Assembly: GCA_028873965.1 (NCBI GenBank)
Contig: JAPPMU010000024.1
Location: 82,933-146,932 of the forward strand
Direction of reading: 5' to 3'
DNA length: 64,000 bases
Source of the DNA: Chloroflexota bacterium
Lineage (GTDB): Bacteria; Chloroflexota; Dehalococcoidia; Lucifugimonadales; UBA3495
Shown: positions 20,246 through 28,880 of the stretch, piece after piece
How positions within the stretch are numbered: the stretch's first letter is position 1
Layout of the letters: each line of letters opens with the position of its first letter
The notes under the pieces: model-generated
The model's input: only the letters and a program-made list of their open reading frames with translations
Database searches by the model: none
What the model was told of the DNA's origin: nothing
Translations under genes and position numbers: made by a program

Positions 20246-20618
20246 GATGCTGTCTCCTGGATTGCGATGGCAGTTGGGCAGTTATTTGGAGGCGCTGGCT
20301 AACGCCTCTAGTGCGCACGCCGGTGGCCATTGCCCATTTTCCAAAGAATTCTACCATCGAATCGGATTTTGTGTACCCTGCTGCCAACCCGTTTATCGCA
20401 ACTTATGTCTGGTTTAGAACCATGGGTTCGTGACGTCGTTCCCCGAATAGCGCGATTTGCCGGCGAGGCTCCGCAAAGCCCCTCATTCGTTGACGGGCAT
20501 CCACACTCCGCCTGCTGAGTCTCCGCGTTGACGCAACCGGCGTCGGCAAATAGACTGCGTGCAATCCGTACGTCTTGCAAGCTCCGAATCCCAGGCTCCA
20601 GATCCAAGGAGAATCACG
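20246..20618. other. Intergenic region between the STAS gene and the UGSC selenoprotein gene
   Basis: These 373 bases separate divergent genes. An inverted repeat GAGGCG ... CGCCTC lies near 20287-20306, close to the STAS start. A sigma-70-like promoter for the plus-strand gene is described separately. I see no credible gene, although antisense frames of the selenoprotein gene run through part of it. Confidence 0.5.
20528..20556 (+). promoter_or_regulatory. Probable sigma-70-type promoter for the UGSC gene
   Basis: TTGACG (20528-20533) and TAGACT (20551-20556) are separated by 17 bases, 63 bases before the ATG at 20619. Spacing is ideal and the -35 differs from consensus at one position. Confidence 0.45.
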
Positions 20619-22340
20619 ATGAAGTTGCAGATCATGTCCCCGGCCGCATCGCGCGTAGACTTCAAGGTGCCGCCGGCAGCCCGCCTGGATACCCTGGAAG
20701 GCAAAACCATCGGTCTCTACAACAACATGACCGGCGGAGCCGGCGTGGCCGTCGACCGTGTCGCCGAGCATATCGGCCGCCGCTTCTCCAACGTGCGTTT
20801 CGAGAGCTACGGCGGCAACCTGCGCGAAGGTCGTCCGGCGTTGAGCCGCGGCGTGCACATCGACGACGAGGAGGCCGCCCGCATCGCCGTCGAGGTGGAC
20901 GCCATGGTGGGCGCCGCGGCGCATTGAGGGGGCTGCACGTCGTGGCTTGCCCACGACATGGTAGCCATGGAAAAGGCCGGCGTGCCCGCGGTGGGCATCG
21001 CCGCGCGCAGTTTCGCCCGGGCCTGGCAGTCCTGCGTTGATGGCTGGGGCCAGCCCGCCACCGCCTTCGTCACCATCCCTCACGCCTGCACCGGGCAGCA
21101 GCCCGATTACATTCACAGGATGGTGGACGAGCAGATCGACAACATCATCCTCGGTTTGACCCGGATGTCCGCCACCGCCGACCTGTCCGCCGGCGCCAAC
21201 GGCCACAGCGAAACCGACGTGTTCACTGTTGAGCTGGACGACACGCCTCTGGGCCTCGACGCGGTGAACCGTTTCATGGAAGAGCGCGACTGGAGCGACG
21301 GGATGCCCATCGTGCCGCCCACTCCCGCCGCCGTGGAGGCCATGCTCAAGGGCACCCGCCGCGACCCGCAGGACGTGGTCATGGTCATGGAGCCGGGCTT
21401 CGGTCTGGCCACCGTGGAGAAGGTCGCCATCAACGCGGTGATGGCCGGCTGCCAGCCGGCGCAGTTCCCTATCCTGCTGGCCGCCCTGGAGTGCATCGCC
21501 CAGCCGGAGATGAACCACCGGGACATGCAGGTGTCCGGCCATACCGAGGCCCCGCTGATTCTGGTCAACGGTCCTATCGCTGCCAAAGCGGGCATCAACT
21601 ACGGCACGTCGGCCATGGGTCCGGGCGTGGTCAACAAGGCCAACACCGCCATCGGACGGGCGCTGCGCCTCTGCCTGATCAACATCGGCTACTGCAAGGC
21701 CGGCGCCGGCGACCCCAACTTCATCGGGCTGCCCACCAAGTTCGGCATGTGCATCGCCGAGAACGAGGAAGTCAGTCCCTGGCAGCCTTACCACGTGGAC
21801 AAGGGGTACCGTCCCGACGAGAGCGCGGTCACCGTGATCACCGTCACCGGACCCACCGACATCCTCGACGCCGGCTCGCGGAACCACGAGGATACGCTGA
21901 ACAACATCGCCTCCATGATGTTCTACCGCCACGCCGGCGGCGGCAGCTGGATCCGGGGCCGGCAGTCCGCCCAGGTGGGCCATACCAACCAGCGGGTGGA
22001 GTACCAGAGCCCGTATCATCCCATCATGCTCAGCCCGTCGCGCGCGGTGATCCTGGCCGAGGCCGGGTTCAGCAAGCGCGCTACCCAGGAGTGGCTGCAC
22101 GAGCATTGCCGCGCCTCGCTGCGCGACGCCATCGGGCCGGCCGGCATGCCCACCGACGCCAACGGCAAGTGGCTGCGCTATCCGGAGCTGCAGCGCCTGG
22201 CCGACGACCCCGACGCCACCATTCCCGCGCTGGAGGACCCGGAACAGTACCTGCTGTTCGTCACCGGCGGCTCCACCCACTACGCCAACTTCTTCTACGG
22301 TACCTACGGCATCGCCACCATGCCGGTGGAGGACGTGTAG
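20619..22340 (+). CDS. UGSC family selenoprotein (in-frame UGA, Sec103)
   Basis: ATG 20619 follows AAGGAG (20606-20611). The frame runs 102 codons to TGA at 20925-20927 and then stays open in the same frame to TAG at 22338-22340: 573 residues if TGA is read as selenocysteine. The sequence around it is H-U-G-G-C-T-S-W-L-A-H-D, matching the U-G-S-C-T-S motif of the UGSC (seleno)protein family with Ser replaced by Gly; the helix DMVAMEKAGVPAVGIAARSF also follows as in that family. A U..C redox pair is implied. The 440-residue remainder includes ERDWSDGMPIVPPTP and VNGPIAAKAGINYG and has no known function. A hairpin follows the UGA. Automatic annotation would split this into 20619-20927 and 20958-22340. 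Confidence 0.82.
20931..20966 (+). promoter_or_regulatory. Candidate bacterial SECIS hairpin
   Basis: Starting three bases after the UGA, GGCT (20931-20934) pairs with AGCC (20963-20966); GTCGTGG (20939-20945) pairs perfectly with CCACGAC (20951-20957), leaving loop CTTGC. If the closing G-C pair opens, the loop is 7 nt, begins with G and lies 17 nt after the UGA, which fits the general rules for bacterial SECIS elements (small apical loop with an early G, 16-37 nt from the UGA). All of it is coding sequence. Confidence 0.6.
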
Positions 22341-22372: not shown

Positions 22373-22705
22373 ATGATGATAACCCAGGACGTGTCTGACG
22401 CCATCGTCGAGATGGTGTACGAAGACTTGTCCGGCAGGTTCCAGGGGGAATTGGAGTTTGGCCCGATCAACATCGTGCAGGAGATCGACGAGTATGGAGA
22501 CCCCTATCTCCACATTCTCATCGTGTTCGACGGCGACCAGAGCAAGCTGGACTCGAAATGGACCGTCGGCCTGATGACGCGCCTGCTCCCCCAACTGCTT
22601 GACCTGGGGATAAAGCACTTTCCCCACCGCTCGTTCTTCAGCAAAGAGGACTCGGAAATCGTAAAGGAGAGAATAAAAAGGTGGCATTGGAACCCGACGC
22701 CCTGA
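22373..22705 (+). CDS. Hypothetical protein, partner of the HEPN-like gene
   Basis: 110 residues from ATG 22373, with GGAGA at 22361-22365. The sequence (MMITQDVSDAIVEMVYEDLSG; YLHILIVFDGDQSKLDSKW; LLDLGIKHFPHRSFFSK) has an alpha/beta pattern. A central hydrophobic strand ending in Asp recalls the nucleotidyltransferase partners of HEPN proteins, but the GSxxRG motif is absent, so I do not assign that family. It overlaps the next gene by 25 bases, which suggests translational coupling. Confidence 0.65.
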   Translation: MMITQDVSDAIVEMVYEDLSGRFQGELEFGPINIVQEIDEYGDPYLHILIVFDGDQSKLDSKWTVGLMTRLLPQLLDLGIKHFPHRSFFSKEDSEIVKERIKRWHWNPTP

Positions 22706-23175
22706 TCGGCGTCGCCAGGACCCTGGCCGCCGGCGGCAATGCCGGGAGCCCCAGCGTAACCACGGATACCGAATTGCGCCGAGCGGTCAGTTGCGCCTAC
22801 TACGCCATCTTTCACACCTTGTGCCGCGCCTACGCTGACGTGATGGCCGGCCCGCACCTCGGTAGTCAACTGGGACGGGATGCCTGGAACATGGCGTACC
22901 GCAGCATCGATCACGGGCTGGCCAGAAGCAAATGCAGCGATGGCGGCAACATGAGACGGTTCGGCCCCAACATCCAGGATTTCGCCGGCAGATTTGTGGA
23001 GTTACAGCAACGGCGTCACGAGGCTGACTACGATCCCGGCACGACCTTTACCCAATCACAAGTGAACCGGATCATAGATGATGCGGAAGGCGCGCTAATG
23101 GGTTTCGACAACGCCCCGCCGGACGAAATCAGGTTGTTCATCACCTACCTCACCTCTCGGCCCCGACGGCCATAA
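22681..23175 (+). CDS. HEPN-like domain protein with altered active-site motif
   Basis: 164 residues from GTG 22681 inside the preceding gene. The segment RRAVSCAYYAIFHTLCRAYAD matches the usual HEPN helix SRAYYALFH, but the Arg of the R-X6-H ribonuclease motif is Cys here (codon TGC, one change from CGC); the His remains. The rest is helical (FVELQQRRHEADYDP is typical). Members act as RNases or toxins with a cognate partner; this one may be inactive or structural. Confidence 0.75.
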   Translation: MALEPDALIGVARTLAAGGNAGSPSVTTDTELRRAVSCAYYAIFHTLCRAYADVMAGPHLGSQLGRDAWNMAYRSIDHGLARSKCSDGGNMRRFGPNIQDFAGRFVELQQRRHEADYDPGTTFTQSQVNRIIDDAEGALMGFDNAPPDEIRLFITYLTSRPRRP

Positions 23176-23193
23176 AGAAAGCAGGACAGCAAC

Positions 23194-24120
23194 ATGCCCC
23201 GTACACCCGCCGACCAGTACGTCACCAAGGTCCGCAAGCCGGAGGACATCGACCAATTCTGGAACGACGTGCTGGCGGAAACCGCTGAAATTCCGTTGGA
23301 GCCGGAGGTGGTTTACGACCCTCTTCGGTCCACCGCGCGCATTGACGTGTACGAGGTCTTTTTCACCAGCCTCGACCAGGTTCGGATCGCGGGCTGGTAC
23401 GCCGTCCCACGGCAGCGGGAAGGACGCTTGCCGGGCCTGATCCAGGTCCCCGGGTACAACATGGAGCCGCCGGTGCCCAAGAACTGGGCCGCCCGGGGGT
23501 ATGCCGCCTTCAGCGTCGCTCCCCGCGGCAAGCTGCGCAGCAACCGGCAGTTCAATCCCGGCTATCCCGGCCTGCTGACCTACGGCATGGTGGACCGCAA
23601 CACCTACTCCTACCGGGGCTTCTACATGGACGCCTGCCGCGCCGTGGATTTCCTGCTGGGACGGGATGAGGTCAACGGTGATCGCATCGGCGTCACCGGA
23701 CACAGCCAGGGCGGCGGCCTCACCGTGTCCACGGCGGCGCTGCGCCCCGAGATCAAGGCAGCAGCGGCGGGCGCGCCTTACCTGTGCGGGTACATGGACT
23801 CCATCGAGTTGACTGACGCCTACCCGTACCAGGAAATCGCCGACTACCTGCGGATGTACCCGGATAGCCGGGAACAGGTGGAGAACACGCTGGCCTACTT
23901 CGACGGCATCAACCTCGCCCATCGCATCACTTGTCCTACCATTGTCAGCGTGGGCCTGCAGGACAGCACCTGCCCGCCGGAAACCGGCTTCGCCATGTTC
24001 GACGCCATCGCCAGCGAAGACAAAAAGATGTACGCCTACGACGGCCACGGCCACGACGCCAACAACCACGAGCATGGCGCGGTCATAGACGCCTTCATGG
24101 CCCGGCACCTGCAATCGTAA
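23194..24120 (+). CDS. Alpha/beta hydrolase, acetyl xylan esterase (AXE1)-like
   Basis: 308 residues. After an N-terminal substrate-lid region (DQFWNDVLAETAEIPLEP) typical of AXE1-like esterases, the nucleophile elbow is VTGHSQGGGLTV, with acid and base candidates at VGLQDSTCPPE and YDGHGHDANNHEH. Such enzymes deacetylate sugars or hydrolyse small esters in the cytoplasm. Its diverged paralogue lies two genes downstream (24982-25899). It starts 18 bases after the HEPN-like gene. Confidence 0.88.
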   Translation: MPRTPADQYVTKVRKPEDIDQFWNDVLAETAEIPLEPEVVYDPLRSTARIDVYEVFFTSLDQVRIAGWYAVPRQREGRLPGLIQVPGYNMEPPVPKNWAARGYAAFSVAPRGKLRSNRQFNPGYPGLLTYGMVDRNTYSYRGFYMDACRAVDFLLGRDEVNGDRIGVTGHSQGGGLTVSTAALRPEIKAAAAGAPYLCGYMDSIELTDAYPYQEIADYLRMYPDSREQVENTLAYFDGINLAHRITCPTIVSVGLQDSTCPPETGFAMFDAIASEDKKMYAYDGHGHDANNHEHGAVIDAFMARHLQS

Positions 24121-24150
24121 GAACGCAGATATTTTAACTTGAACCGGACC

Positions 24151-24942
24151 ATGCCAAAGTACGATGCCAAGGCGCTTGCCGTAGCTCGCGCGGTGCAGCA
24201 GCGTGAGCAACCGGAGCTGACCATCCTTTTCGGCTCCCGCTCTCGCGGCGACCATGATGAAGACTGGTCCGACATCGATATCATGATGGTCACGGCCGGC
24301 GAAGCCGACGCCGCCGCAAGAGAACAAGCGAAGGAAGCCGCCTCCACTGCGGCATCAGCCAACTATGGACATTATGTGCCCGTGCAACTGGTGTGGTGCA
24401 CTCTTGAAACCTTCCGCCACAATCGCCGCTACACCAACAGCCTGGAAACCAACGCCGTGCGAGACGGAATAGTTATGCCCAAAGACCCCGAACAGCACGG
24501 CTCATCGCACTGCGAGGACGCGGAAACCGAGTACGAATACGACTGGTCAACGTATGAGAACCGCCTGGAAGATGCTTCCGACCACCTGGAAGCGTTCGGA
24601 AGACTGGTAGAGCAGGGGCTAAGCGATCAGATAATCGGTCTCCACGCGCAGGGGGCGCTGGAACACGCGATGAAAGCGCTGTTGGAAGCCCACCGCGCCC
24701 AATACCGATTCAGCCACGACATCGGCGAACTGCTGGGCAACGCACGCCGAGTTGATCCGACAATGGCGGAGTTCCGCTTATCCATCGACCCGGACATCTA
24801 CAGCCACTACGCCGGACGACATGCTTACATCCGGCCCGCCGCGCCCAAAATGCTGACCAACCAGCCGGACTACCTTGCCCGCACCATAGCCGAGGTCGAA
24901 TTTATCATCGCCCGCGCCAGGGTAGTCCGCTCTCAGGCGTAG
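24151..24942 (+). CDS. Fused nucleotidyltransferase-HEPN protein
   Basis: I take ATG 24151 (MPKYDAKALA, 263 residues); a TTG at 24139 would add four residues. The N-terminal third is a minimal nucleotidyltransferase with the complete motif LFGSRSRGDHDEDWSDIDIMMV. After a linker, about residues 125-260 form a HEPN domain (LHAQGALEHAMKALLEAHRAQY; SHDIGELL). The two parts are usually separate antitoxin and toxin genes; here both activities sit on one chain. It lies between two related hydrolase genes. Confidence 0.85.
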   Translation: MPKYDAKALAVARAVQQREQPELTILFGSRSRGDHDEDWSDIDIMMVTAGEADAAAREQAKEAASTAASANYGHYVPVQLVWCTLETFRHNRRYTNSLETNAVRDGIVMPKDPEQHGSSHCEDAETEYEYDWSTYENRLEDASDHLEAFGRLVEQGLSDQIIGLHAQGALEHAMKALLEAHRAQYRFSHDIGELLGNARRVDPTMAEFRLSIDPDIYSHYAGRHAYIRPAAPKMLTNQPDYLARTIAEVEFIIARARVVRSQA

Positions 24943-24981
24943 CCCTACTGCAACATCACCGACCGCCATGGACTGAACCGC

Positions 24982-25899
24982 ATGACCACGCTTACCGGCG
25001 CAAAACCCCATGATTTCGACGACTACTGGCACGACGTGCTGGCGGAACTGTCCCGGTTCCCGCCGGCGCCGGAAGTGCAGGAACTCCCGCTCCGCTCCAC
25101 CGACTTCGCCACCGCCTACGGGGTGCGCCTGACCTCCATCGGGCCCTACCGCATTTACGGCTACCTGAGTATTCCCAACCATGACGGGCCTTTTCCGGCG
25201 CGCTATCACCTGCCGCGCTACGGCAGCGTGCAGGACCTAGTGCCCCAGGGACAGGCCAACGGCCAACGCCGGGAGCACGTGACCTTCGCCATCTGCGTGC
25301 GCGGGCAGCGGCTGGCGGATCAGCCCTACGCCGCGGCCTTTCCCGGCCAACTCACCGACGGCATCGACGACCCCGCAACCTATGTGTACCGGGGCATCGT
25401 GGCCGACTGCGTTCGCGGACTGCAATACCTGGCCGGCCGGCCCGAGGTGGACGCCACGCGCATCGCCGCCATCGGCAATGACCTGGCCCTGACCACCGCG
25501 GCCCTGTCTCCGCAGGTCACCCACCTGGTGACCACGCCGACCCTGCTCCACGCAACCGCCGAGTTGGCCCCGCGCACCAGCGCCTATCCCCTGGAGGAGA
25601 TCAACGACTACCTGCGACTGCATCCGACCCGCCGAGAGGCCGTGCATCGCACGCTGTCCTACTTCGACCTGCGCTGGTTCGGCTCCAGGGTCAGCGCGAC
25701 GACGCTGCTGATGGCCGGCGCCGACGGCTCCGCGCTGGACGCCGCCGCCCTGGAACCCCTGGTGCGCGACATCCGGGGCGAGACCACCGTCCACAAGGCG
25801 GAACATTCCGGCTACCGGGACGGCCGCTACAGCGAGGAATGGTTGTCGCAAAAATTCGGCATGGCGGAACCCAGCCTCCCACCCCACTGGCAGGACTGA
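24982..25899 (+). CDS. Degenerate AXE1-like alpha/beta hydrolase (nucleophile lost)
   Basis: 305 residues, clearly paralogous to 23194-24120: FDDYWHDVLAELSRFPPAPE and LPLRST at the N-terminus, YVYRGIVADCVRGLQYLAGRPEVD before the elbow, and LEEINDYLRLHPTRREAVHRTLSYFD after it. Where the paralogue has GHSQGGG, this protein has IGNDLALTTA, so the serine nucleophile is gone. A histidine in AEHSGYRDG remains. The frame is intact and unbroken, which argues for a retained non-hydrolytic role. The 3' end is five bases from the next hydrolase. Confidence 0.8.
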   Translation: MTTLTGAKPHDFDDYWHDVLAELSRFPPAPEVQELPLRSTDFATAYGVRLTSIGPYRIYGYLSIPNHDGPFPARYHLPRYGSVQDLVPQGQANGQRREHVTFAICVRGQRLADQPYAAAFPGQLTDGIDDPATYVYRGIVADCVRGLQYLAGRPEVDATRIAAIGNDLALTTAALSPQVTHLVTTPTLLHATAELAPRTSAYPLEEINDYLRLHPTRREAVHRTLSYFDLRWFGSRVSATTLLMAGADGSALDAAALEPLVRDIRGETTVHKAEHSGYRDGRYSEEWLSQKFGMAEPSLPPHWQD

Positions 25900-25903
25900 T
25901 CAA

Positions 25904-26677
25904 ATGCCCTACGCGAACCTGCCCGGCGTCGATCTCTGGTACGAGGATTCCGGCGGCGACGGCATCCCGGTGATCTTCTGCCACGCCGCTTCCGGCACCT
26001 GCGATTGCTGGATCTACCAACTGCCCGCGTTCACGCTGGCCGGCTACCGCTGCATCACCTACGACCGGCGCACCTGGGGAAAGTCCCGCAACACCGACGA
26101 AACCCTGCAACCGGGCTATCAAGACGAGGACCTGCACGGCCTGGTCAAGTTCCTGGGCCTGGATCGATTCCACCTGGTTGGCACCGCCGCCGGCGGGATA
26201 ACCGCCATCGGCTACGCGCTGGCCCATCCCGAGCGGGTGCGGAGCCTGGTGTTCGCCAACACCATCGCCGGCATCCAGGACCCGGAGTACCTGGAGGTTC
26301 AGGACCGCATCCGGCCGCCCGAAATCCGCAACTTGCCTGTGGAACTGTACGAGCTGGGACCTTCGTATCGAGGCACGGACCCGGACGGCACGGCTCGGTG
26401 GCTGAAGATCGAGCACGCCAGCCGCCCGTATGGTCGCCTTCCGGCCCAGCCGCTGCGGGAACCCACCACCTACGCCCGGCTGGCCGCCATGCGCGTGCCG
26501 GCGATGGCGCTGTCCGGCGAGTCCGACCTGGTGTCCCCGCCGGCGCTGATGCGGCTGCAGGCGGAGCGCATCCCCGGCAGCCGCTTCGTGTCGTTGCCCG
26601 AGGCAGGACACGCCGGCTTCTGGGAACGTCCGCAGGTGTGGAACGGCCTGGTGCTGGAGTTCATCGGACAGCATTAG
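25904..26677 (+). CDS. Alpha/beta hydrolase (enol-lactonase-like) with Ala at the nucleophile position
   Basis: 257 residues of the 3-oxoadipate enol-lactonase/MhpC-like group: LPGVDLWYEDSGGDGIPVIFCHA (oxyanion region), YDRRTWGKS, LHGLVKFLGLDRFHLVG. The nucleophile elbow, normally GHSMGG, reads GTAAGG, with Ala for Ser. The acid (SGESDLVSPP) and base (EAGHAGFWERP) are present. Either it is catalytically inactive or it uses non-serine chemistry. Its last 17 bases overlap the next gene's 3' end tail to tail. Confidence 0.82.
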   Translation: MPYANLPGVDLWYEDSGGDGIPVIFCHAASGTCDCWIYQLPAFTLAGYRCITYDRRTWGKSRNTDETLQPGYQDEDLHGLVKFLGLDRFHLVGTAAGGITAIGYALAHPERVRSLVFANTIAGIQDPEYLEVQDRIRPPEIRNLPVELYELGPSYRGTDPDGTARWLKIEHASRPYGRLPAQPLREPTTYARLAAMRVPAMALSGESDLVSPPALMRLQAERIPGSRFVSLPEAGHAGFWERPQVWNGLVLEFIGQH

Positions 26678-27422
26678 GCGATGGCAGTTCCAGCGGCTCG
26701 TTGAAATGGGAGAAACGCGTCTCCATTGAGTATTGGTACGCGAACGCTTCTCCCACCGCAGGGAACGAACCTTCCATCGTGTAAGCGTGCAGCAACCCGT
26801 CTTCAGCGCCCACCCACGCGGCAACCGTCACGGTTCCAGCCAGCATCTGGGCGCGCAAATCTCCCCCACCGCCTGCGACCTCGTCGCCCCAGGCTTCGCG
26901 CACCTGCCGAGCCGTATCCACGTTGCCGGTAACCTTGTTGACGCGCACGCCCCGTAAAACTTCCTGCCCTTCGTGCGACACGTCGGTCAAGCCGTCCAGA
27001 ATCTGAAAGTGATCCCTGGGGCTGGGGAAGTTTGGGGCAGCGGGCCAGCTGCCGGGGGGCGACCATTCTTCCCACGCTCCGGCGTCACTCTCCCGGTGAT
27101 ATTGCGCGCCGTCCAGCAGCAGCGTCTCACCGTATCTCCCGTTTTCCGTCCAGGTGACGTGCATCCCCTCATCTACCACGACCGTTGCCTCGGTGTGGAA
27201 CTCCTGGTGTTCCGGTCCGCCCTCGGTGTGAACCGTGAATCGGGCGTCAGTCGTGAATTTGTACGTTGTCACGGCCGAGGTGTTGACCCGGCCCAGATGA
27301 AACATCTCCTCTGCCGAGAAGGGGTCGGACGCCGGCGCAAACACCATCCACCCCACCACCGCAAGCGCCCCTACCCCGATCACGGCGACGGCGGATAGCA
27401 ATGCCTTCCAGCGTGTCAACAT
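26661..27422 (-). CDS. Membrane-anchored exported protein of unknown function (LolA/LppX-like fold possible)
   Basis: Start at 27422 (MLTRWKALLSAVAVIGVGALAVVGWMVF), 253 residues, with one N-terminal membrane anchor and no lipobox cysteine. The outside domain is beta-rich (TYKFTTDARFTVHTEGGPE; EATVVVDEGMHVTW; YHRESDAGAWEEW; HEGQEVLRGVRVNKVTG), a pattern seen in LppX/LprG- and LolA-like proteins. That is inference from pattern, not recognised similarity. The open frame upstream of 27422 has no conserved sequence. Confidence 0.55.
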   Translation of the reverse strand: MLTRWKALLSAVAVIGVGALAVVGWMVFAPASDPFSAEEMFHLGRVNTSAVTTYKFTTDARFTVHTEGGPEHQEFHTEATVVVDEGMHVTWTENGRYGETLLLDGAQYHRESDAGAWEEWSPPGSWPAAPNFPSPRDHFQILDGLTDVSHEGQEVLRGVRVNKVTGNVDTARQVREAWGDEVAGGGGDLRAQMLAGTVTVAAWVGAEDGLLHAYTMEGSFPAVGEAFAYQYSMETRFSHFNEPLELPSPNAVR

Positions 27423-27716
27423 GGTTAGTTCCCGCTCAAGTCTATCGCACATCGTCAGTACCAGATTTACGGAATCTTATAATTTGGCAGGATTGGAAGA
27501 GCTCCCTCACGGAACGGTTCCAATCCCGGTAATCCCTGAATCTTGAAAATCCTGATTCTGACGTTTCTCCGCCGCAAACTGGGTACGCATGAGGCGACGG
27601 CAGTTTAATTTGTCCGTTGCGCGGTTTCTGGTGTAGATTGTTTGTCGGCGGTACGCAGCGACGCTGCTGAAATTGCCGCCCACGCATCAGAAAATCGCAG
27701 TCCTGGAGGGACACCA
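27423..27716. other. Intergenic region with solo terminal repeat and possible promoter
   Basis: Divergent region upstream of the MetE-like gene. AAACTGGGTACGCATG at 27577-27592 is a solo copy of the end of the element family seen at 36127-36256 and 59952-60083. GAAAATCCTGATTCTGAC near 27545 also recurs near 32766. A promoter-like pair TTGTCC (27610-27615) and TAGATT (27634-27639), 18 bases apart, could serve the MetE-like gene. No gene is visible. Confidence 0.5.
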
Positions 27717-28880
27717 ATGGCGGACGCACCCCTGTTTCCCGTTACCGTGGTCGGAAGCTGGCCCCGGTCCACCGAGCTGATCCGCGCCCTGCGTCGCAAG
27801 GAAGCGGGTGAGATCACCTATGACGAGTTCAGTGCGTTGGCCGACGACGAGGTCCTGGCCTGCATCCGCGCCCAGGAAGAGGCCGGCGTGGACATCATCA
27901 GCGACGGCGAGCAGCGGCGGGACAACTTCTATTCCTTCGCGGTTGACAAGCTCACCGGCATGCAGTTGATGAAAGTGTCGGAACTGCTGGACTACTCCAG
28001 TGACCGCGCCCGCATGGAGGAGGTGCTGCGCGCTCTCGACGTGCCGTCCTTCGCCATCAAGAGCCCCATCGTAATCGACAAGATCGGCAAGCGCCATGGC
28101 CTGGCCCTGGACGAGTTGGCCTACATGCGCGAGCACACCGACCGGCAGATCATGGTACCCATCCCCGGCCCCTATATGCTCACTCGCTCCGGCTGGTTCG
28201 AGGGCTTGTCAGACAAGGCGTACCCCACTCCCGACGACCTGGCTCGGGACGTGGTAGAAATCCTGCGTGAGGAGATCATCGCCCTGCGCGACCATGGTTG
28301 CGACTTCGTGCAGCTCGACGAACCCACCCTCTCCCAGGTGGTGTTCGGTGAAGAGACCACCGAGACCTTCATGTGCGCCGCGTTGCCCAACCGCCGCGAC
28401 CCCACCGACGAGTTGGAGATGGCGGTACGGCTGATGAACGAAACCCTGGAGGGCATCGACGGCATCAAGACCGGCGTGCACGTCTGTCGAGGCAACTGGA
28501 GCCGCAAGGAAGAGGTGCTGCTCCAGGGGAACTACGGCCCCATGCTGCCCTACCTGACCCAGATGAACATCGACCGGCTGGTGCTGGAATGCGCCACACC
28601 CCGCGCCGGCGAGATGGCAGTGTTCCAGGAATACGCCAACGAGAAGGAGATCGGCTTCGGCGTGGTCAACCCCCGCACCGACGACATCGAGCCACCCGAG
28701 CAGATCATCAACCGGGTCAAGGAACTCCTGCAGTACTTCGACCCCGACAAGATCTACCTGAATCCCGACTGCGGCTTTGGCACCTTCGCCGAGCGCAACG
28801 TCAACACCCACGAAATGGCCGCCAGGAAGATGCAGGCGATCACCAACGCCGCGGAGATACTGCGCGCGGAGTATGCGTAG
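27717..28880 (+). CDS. MetE-like cobalamin-independent methyltransferase (C-terminal domain type)
   Basis: 387 residues from ATG 27717, preceded by GGAGGG. The barrel begins FPVTVVGSWPRSTELIRA as in UROD/MetE proteins. Zinc ligands of methionine synthase are present: His255 and Cys257 in GVHVCRGNW, Glu291 in LVLECATPR, and Cys352 in NPDCGFGTF; VQLDEPTLS carries the homocysteine-binding Asp-Glu. It lacks the N-terminal half of full-length MetE, so it is a short core-type enzyme whose methyl donor and thiol acceptor are uncertain. Confidence 0.88.
   Translation: MADAPLFPVTVVGSWPRSTELIRALRRKEAGEITYDEFSALADDEVLACIRAQEEAGVDIISDGEQRRDNFYSFAVDKLTGMQLMKVSELLDYSSDRARMEEVLRALDVPSFAIKSPIVIDKIGKRHGLALDELAYMREHTDRQIMVPIPGPYMLTRSGWFEGLSDKAYPTPDDLARDVVEILREEIIALRDHGCDFVQLDEPTLSQVVFGEETTETFMCAALPNRRDPTDELEMAVRLMNETLEGIDGIKTGVHVCRGNWSRKEEVLLQGNYGPMLPYLTQMNIDRLVLECATPRAGEMAVFQEYANEKEIGFGVVNPRTDDIEPPEQIINRVKELLQYFDPDKIYLNPDCGFGTFAERNVNTHEMAARKMQAITNAAEILRAEYA

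Follow-up and report, generated by a model that had tools for sequence, protein, structure and literature searches.

Gene organization at the locus

The gene under study lies on the plus strand of the window (the whole stretch of DNA that was analysed, 64,000 nucleotides in length), where positions 20619-22340 hold what we take, with high confidence, to be a selenoprotein gene in which a UGSC domain is paired with a C-terminal partner domain. When TGA is translated as selenocysteine (Sec, U), the frame yields 573 residues with a single U, at position 103 (U103, corresponding to the in-frame TGA at 20925-20927 of the same strand), and it ends at the TAG of 22338-22340. This bears out the sequence-only reading, according to which one frame runs across the TGA and is free of other stops up to 22338. 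A ribosome-binding-like AAGGAG is located directly 5' of the ATG at 20619. The UGSC domain (PF24696, residues 5-181) is assigned to 20619-21173 from a Pfam match and a structure model, and the partner domain (residues 205-573) to 21231-22337 from homologues encoded by genes of their own in the vicinity of UGSC, both domains being on the plus strand. It had also been anticipated that gene finders would split this gene and, indeed, ORF calling with table 11 results in two ORFs, at 20559-20927 (122 aa) and at 20958-22340 (460 aa).

On the minus strand, an open frame of 625 codons (20403-22280) overlaps the selenoprotein gene in antisense; as the coding DNA is rich in G+C, this is probably a shadow frame. 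Inspection by eye evidences a divergent STAS/SpoIIE-type set 5' of the gene and no clear operon around it. On the 3' side, the plus strand from 22373 to 28880 carries an unnamed ORF of 110 aa, followed by two AXE1-like esterases, and further ORFs for a nucleotidyltransferase-HEPN protein, an alpha/beta hydrolase and a MetE-like protein. Within the window, an Rfam search at gathering thresholds found no RNA families and ARAGORN found no tRNA genes.

Conservation and decoding of the in-frame UGA

That the UGA at 20925-20927 is a coding one, predicted to be decoded as selenocysteine, is very well supported by the comparison of related sequences. A true stop at this position, whether in a pseudogene, through an error of sequencing or between two genes of which the second is reinitiated at ATG 20958, would agree with the two ORFs obtained using table 11, but it is very improbable in view of how the codon and its surroundings are conserved. 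When the full protein was searched against 296 related genomes, at least 177 of them had a match. Within the same genus, all 14 genomes (the source genome included) have a full-length match with exactly one TGA, at 84-100% identity, and an error of sequencing is accordingly very unlikely. Among the matches listed, 64 loci gave 66 full-length fused ORFs, which include that of the window, are not a random sample and have C-terminal domains with as little as 31% identity; in 66 out of 66 the UGA is kept within a UGxC motif and the C-terminal domain follows it, so that homologues clearly do not all end at this codon. The protein conservation is unbroken across the UGA, comprising U-x-x-C and the stretch from the UGA to ATG 20958, and in agreement with this the sequence right after the codon had been described as conserved family sequence.

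The UGA had been proposed to occupy the Sec position of the UGSC motif. At this position Cys replaces Sec at five loci, which carry a Cys codon without a gene end at that point. These five are found among 76 named UGSC-partner loci (from the best 80 of 574 confirmed partner loci); two of them are fused forms, from Nonomuraea corallina and from an actinomycete assembly, and three are separate genes, from Natrialba, Sphingomonas and Natronomonas. The third motif position is occupied by G, S, A, T, Q or N in the homologues. The Gly of the window protein, which had been regarded as an unusual change from Ser, is indeed present but is thus an ordinary residue at this position and a common variant.

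The source genome (3.88 Mb in 70 contigs, 96.9% complete, 7.3% contamination) was also analyzed for the selenocysteine machinery which the sequence-only reading had proposed to look for, and all the components are present: a tRNA-Sec with anticodon UCA (66.4 bits, over the cut-off) and, from the genome search, SelA (542.2 bits), SelB (356.9 bits) and SelD (377.6 bits). The match to SelD (L028, C10:54762-55679) has one in-frame TGA within it, which indicates that SelD is probably a selenoprotein itself. A single TGA is present in the frame of the match at every one of the seven UGSC loci of this genome. A UGA that is reassigned or non-specifically read through, for example as Trp or Gly, instead of being decoded as Sec, is a reading in favour of which we found nothing and which has a practically negligible probability: the machinery argues against it, as do the ordinary TGA stops of 6 out of 13 window ORFs checked (the selenoprotein gene being among the 13) and the fact that the five named loci with a codon other than UGA all have Cys there.

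The distribution of the machinery in other genomes goes along with the residue at this position, SelA and SelB being over the cut-off in 11/11 genomes with a Sec form versus 1/5 genomes with a Cys form (Fisher p 0.003), in a comparison of 16 genomes (those of the five Cys forms and 11 picked from 71 Sec-form loci) of which several are draft assemblies and which are not independent of each other. Bacillus dakarensis (L171), in which SelA and SelB are over the cut-off, has a UGSC-partner fusion with an in-frame UGA, and this named strain is a possible cultured source for experiments. In the source organism, SelB and the tRNA-Sec would decode the UGA at 20925-20927 as Sec, and a hairpin placed just 3' of the UGA would aid this decoding, resulting in a single chain of 573 residues.

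A SECIS-like hairpin downstream of the UGA

The bacterial SECIS-like hairpin is assigned to 20931-20966 of the plus strand, as inferred from its fold, synonymous diversity, stem pairing and codon use at Leu110. It comprises an outer stem of 6 bp (20931-20936 with 20961-20966), which begins three bases past the UGA, and an apical stem of 7 bp (20939-20945 with 20951-20957) closed by the loop CUUGC (20946-20950). The 7-bp stem and the start three bases past the UGA had been described from the DNA letters and are retained here, whereas the outer stem has 6 bp and not the 4 bp initially proposed. The stretch of 46 nt from the UGA folds with -21.2 kcal/mol (z -2.49), and shorter stretches scarcely beat their shuffles (z -0.58 for 20925-20964 and z -0.86 for 20928-20961), so that the case for the hairpin relies on conservation more than on stability.

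Analysis of 34 close genes in 505 overlapping stretches of 14 codons places the minimum of synonymous diversity at codons 100-114, and the ten stretches with the lowest values all begin between codons 97 and 106. Pairing was evaluated on 128 distinct sequences (54 from the loci of relatives and 74 from named loci, duplicates and N-containing stretches having been removed). In the apical stem 91.4% of the cells are paired and 32 double changes are observed, neither value being matched in 2000 shuffles, a test in which kinship among the sequences is ignored. Slid registers of the stem have 18-50% of cells paired versus 91% in register, and 14 to 30 double changes versus 32, which indicates that the double-change count alone is weak and that it is the fraction of paired cells that singles out the stem. 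The outer stem is poorly conserved, with 57% of its cells paired over the 128 sequences and 83% in the first 24. At most four apical pairs are found in 9/128 sequences, some of which apparently use a stem shifted by one base, as judged by eye. Where UCA occurs it stands with CAU (4/4 UCA), a pairing which may partly reflect the lower G+C of those genomes, and the change from G-C to C-G at pair 21-27 (13 cells) is a stronger sign. In the five Cys-form genes, between 5 and 7 of the 7 apical pairs are retained; the presence of the stem as such therefore says little, since the encoded residues and the codon habits are enough to favour one here.

The bSECIS criteria, as given in the available part of a 2026 review (PMC13188914), comprise a loop of 3-9 nt, an upper stem of 4-16 bp, a UGA-to-loop distance of 16-37 nt and an MFE <=-7.5, and the window hairpin falls within these ranges with a 5-nt loop, 7 bp, 18 nt and -21.2 kcal/mol. 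The model described in that part further requires a G in the first two loop places, and some putative bacterial SECIS elements are stated there not to fit it (PMC13188914). In CUUGC, neither of the first two places is a G, and opening the closing G-C pair puts a G first. This variation relates to the residue encoded at position 110: in 65/128 sequences it is Leu, Met or Ile and a G is absent from the first two loop places, and in 63/128 it is Ser, Cys, Val or Gly and a G is present there. The other six UGSC loci of the source genome have the loops AGUGU (four), GGUCU (one) and AGUUU (one), as read by eye. Leu110, which lies in the apical loop, is encoded by CTT in 34/34 close genes versus 75/1158 of the other Leu codons there, a fixation suggestive of selection on the atypical loop itself.

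The UGSC domain and its partner

The membership of the protein in the UGSC family, as initially claimed, is sustained by Pfam, with PF24696 matching residues 5-181 at 91.8 bits (cut-off 25), but not by the NCBIfam equivalog NF041046 ('UGSC family (seleno)protein'), for which the score of 79.8 bits is below the threshold of 125. The window protein shares with the family the UxxC Sec motif, the Sec/Cys exchange and a score above the Pfam cut-off, and differs from it in being fused to the partner, in its motif UGGCTSW, in its position below the NF041046 cut-off and in the SECIS loop CUUGC. According to the structure model, the UGSC domain would have an alternating beta/alpha, Rossmann-like organization, in which U103 would be placed between the strand 95-101 and the helix 104-119. 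The structure matches listed for this model are Rossmann-like chains with no thioredoxin fold among them, a listing with which such a fold would still be compatible. Sequence searches of the PDB gave no match for the UGSC protein and a best E of 0.27 for the UGSC profile. In the available part of an ocean survey of 2008 (PMC2398784), by which date at the latest UGSC selenoproteins had been described, UGSC-containing proteins are among the five most numerous selenoprotein families, with 255 sequences, and the available part of the 2026 review includes UGSC among the selenoproteins with largely uncharacterised functions (PMC13188914).

The partner domain (the C-terminal ~370 residues), in which DG, NGP, GR and E residues are conserved, did not match any family of Pfam and NCBIfam at E up to 1. 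The same searches with 27 aligned partner relatives resulted in scattered single-member matches only, none of them below E 0.019, and in the PDB sequence search the best E of the partner profile was 1.4, with nothing meaningful. A distinct scenario resulted from scanning a named genome collection with a profile of the C-terminal domain and one peptide pattern. In the best 80 of the 574 confirmed loci, UGSC is fused to the partner or located within 1 kb at 76: fused forms account for 27 Sec-type and 2 Cys-type loci, and a UGSC gene on the same strand within 1 kb for 44 Sec-type and 3 Cys-type loci. The long C-terminal domain had been considered unusual; instead, UGSC genes regularly have it as a neighbour, and here it is found fused. 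No UGSC is visible at four of the best 80 loci: L113 and L176 begin at a contig end, only 215 bases follow L121, and L157 is intact. In the source genome, the partner domain is present on the same strand at 7/7 UGSC loci. The best 80 loci are distributed, among others, over Chloroflexota, Pseudomonadota, Rokuibacteriota, Actinomycetota, Synergistota, Bacillota, Entotheonella, Nitrospinota and haloarchaea. At L087 and L088, stand-alone partner genes adjoin a UGSC gene and the matches span both, with an extra TAA in between.

A partner tree of 80 domains (79 from named loci plus that of the window), computed by a quick method, places the window in a group of 21 whose members are all fused and which is delimited by a branch with SH-aLRT 100. 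The fused and separate states require 10 changes on this tree, of which at least 4 are forced by the starred branches, the total being approximate because the three loci among its rows where no UGSC is visible (L121, L157 and L176) were counted as separate, although L121 and L176 have little or no flanking sequence on one side. Such a repeated fusion of genes which nearly always adjoin is good evidence for one complex. A UGSC/Unknown_1 fusion is reported in the available part of the 2008 ocean survey (PMC2398784), and by its description it resembles the window protein in that a UGSC selenoprotein is joined to an unnamed conserved domain. In view of that report this kind of fusion is not new, and the one in the window may be known already.

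Likeness of the selenocysteine region to GrdB and PrdB

GrdB and PrdB are the Sec subunits of glycine and D-proline reductase, and their Sec region aligns with UGSC, with the UxxC at the same place. Using hhalign, the comparison of UGSC with the Sec region of GrdB gave a probability of 95% (E 3.8e-8, 92 columns) with Sec aligned on Sec, versus 0.1% for a control against the partner domain. With GrdB profiles that stop before the Sec the probability is 0.4%, and the likeness is therefore confined to the Sec region. Pfam GRDB (PF07355), at E up to 1, matched neither the window protein nor any of 35 UGSC domains, and as its matches stop just before the Sec, this model does not cover the region of similarity. 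The window protein differs from GrdB and PrdB in having no match to Pfam GRDB and in its motif UGGCTSW, which does not contain the third Cys of UxxCxxC, the motif named for GrdB in the available part of the 2026 review (PMC13188914); UxxCxxC is found in 4/7 UGSC loci of the source genome. A further difference is that the partner domain of the window protein has no likeness to the GrdB profile (0.25%). A GrdB/PrdB-type enzyme would be expected to have a partner subunit with a pyruvoyl group.

Short GrdB/PrdB-like genes are present at C8:9715-10128 of the source genome and also at L188 and L189; in the latter two the frame continues through the UGA into UPxC and further conserved sequence, and they look like another selenoprotein family. 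In related genomes, full-length GrdB-like genes (L178, L179 and L186) have a frame that runs past the UGA into conserved sequence, the second Cys of UxxC being Ser in L178 and L179 and Cys in L186.

Possible function of the fusion protein

We have considered the genes adjacent to the pair at the named loci, in a set of 118 same-strand mechanical ORFs within 1.5 kb. Among these 118 there are 13 TctC and 8 SBP_bac_5 (family-5 solute-binding) proteins, as well as 3 each of CoA-transferase, enoyl-CoA hydratase, TauD and thiamine-diphosphate enzymes, all counts being without a background control. Betaproteobacteria commonly have TctC receptors, and for both reasons the counts are only a hint. Read in this way, and again with no background control, the neighbours fit organic-acid catabolism.

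Our best guess is that the fusion would be a reductive selenoenzyme in two parts, acting on small organic substrates. The UGSC and partner domains would form one active site, in which the selenolate of Sec, located where a helix begins, would attack a small organic substrate bound by the partner domain, and a carbon-heteroatom bond would be cleaved reductively. The Sec would then be reset through a Sec-Cys bond between U103 and C106, reduced by a thioredoxin-type system, and these steps would all follow the GrdB/PrdB pattern. That the chemistry of the fusion protein is GrdB-like is a tentative proposal, which we rate as possible and somewhat doubtful.

A different function would result if the protein were a thioredoxin-like thiol-disulfide oxidoreductase or a peroxidase, unlike GrdB/PrdB, with the C-terminal domain acting as a protein substrate or docking module. 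The UxxC redox motif is in agreement with such a function, and a thioredoxin-like fold is called likely in the available part of the 2008 survey (PMC2398784). However, the match of the Sec region to GrdB argues against it, as do the modelled alternating beta/alpha organization with Rossmann-like matches, with which a thioredoxin fold would still be compatible, and the neighbours that include transport receptors and organic-acid enzymes, counted with no background control; altogether we consider it rather unlikely.

Returning to the reductive selenoenzyme, a broader proposal, which we advance with reserve, is that UGSC and its partner constitute a widespread, uncharacterised class of selenoenzymes, in which a Sec domain of the GrdB/PrdB type would act on small organic substrates together with a partner of a different family, and of which some Dehalococcoidia and other environmental bacteria would carry several copies per genome. 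The fused clade would decode its UGA via a distinct loop (mostly N-U-U/G-G-Y), accepted by SelB beside the G-U loops of the other selenoprotein genes of the same cell.

Novelty and implications

Within the accessible text of the open-licence PMC literature, the partner as a regular companion of UGSC, the likeness to GrdB and the loop variant were not met with, which is a weak statement; in the open-licence PMC literature we also did not find SAR202 together with selenoprotein, nor selenocysteine together with Dehalococcoidia and sponge. The near-constant partner, the link to GrdB and the atypical SECIS loop are thus possibly new.

For the annotation of such genomes, gene finders that take UGA only as a stop would halve the selenoprotein gene. 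For the UGSC family, the presence of one near-constant and repeatedly fused partner indicates what to co-purify and test, and the likeness to GrdB suggests which chemistry to try, while the loop variant offers a natural test of how strict the recognition by SelB is.
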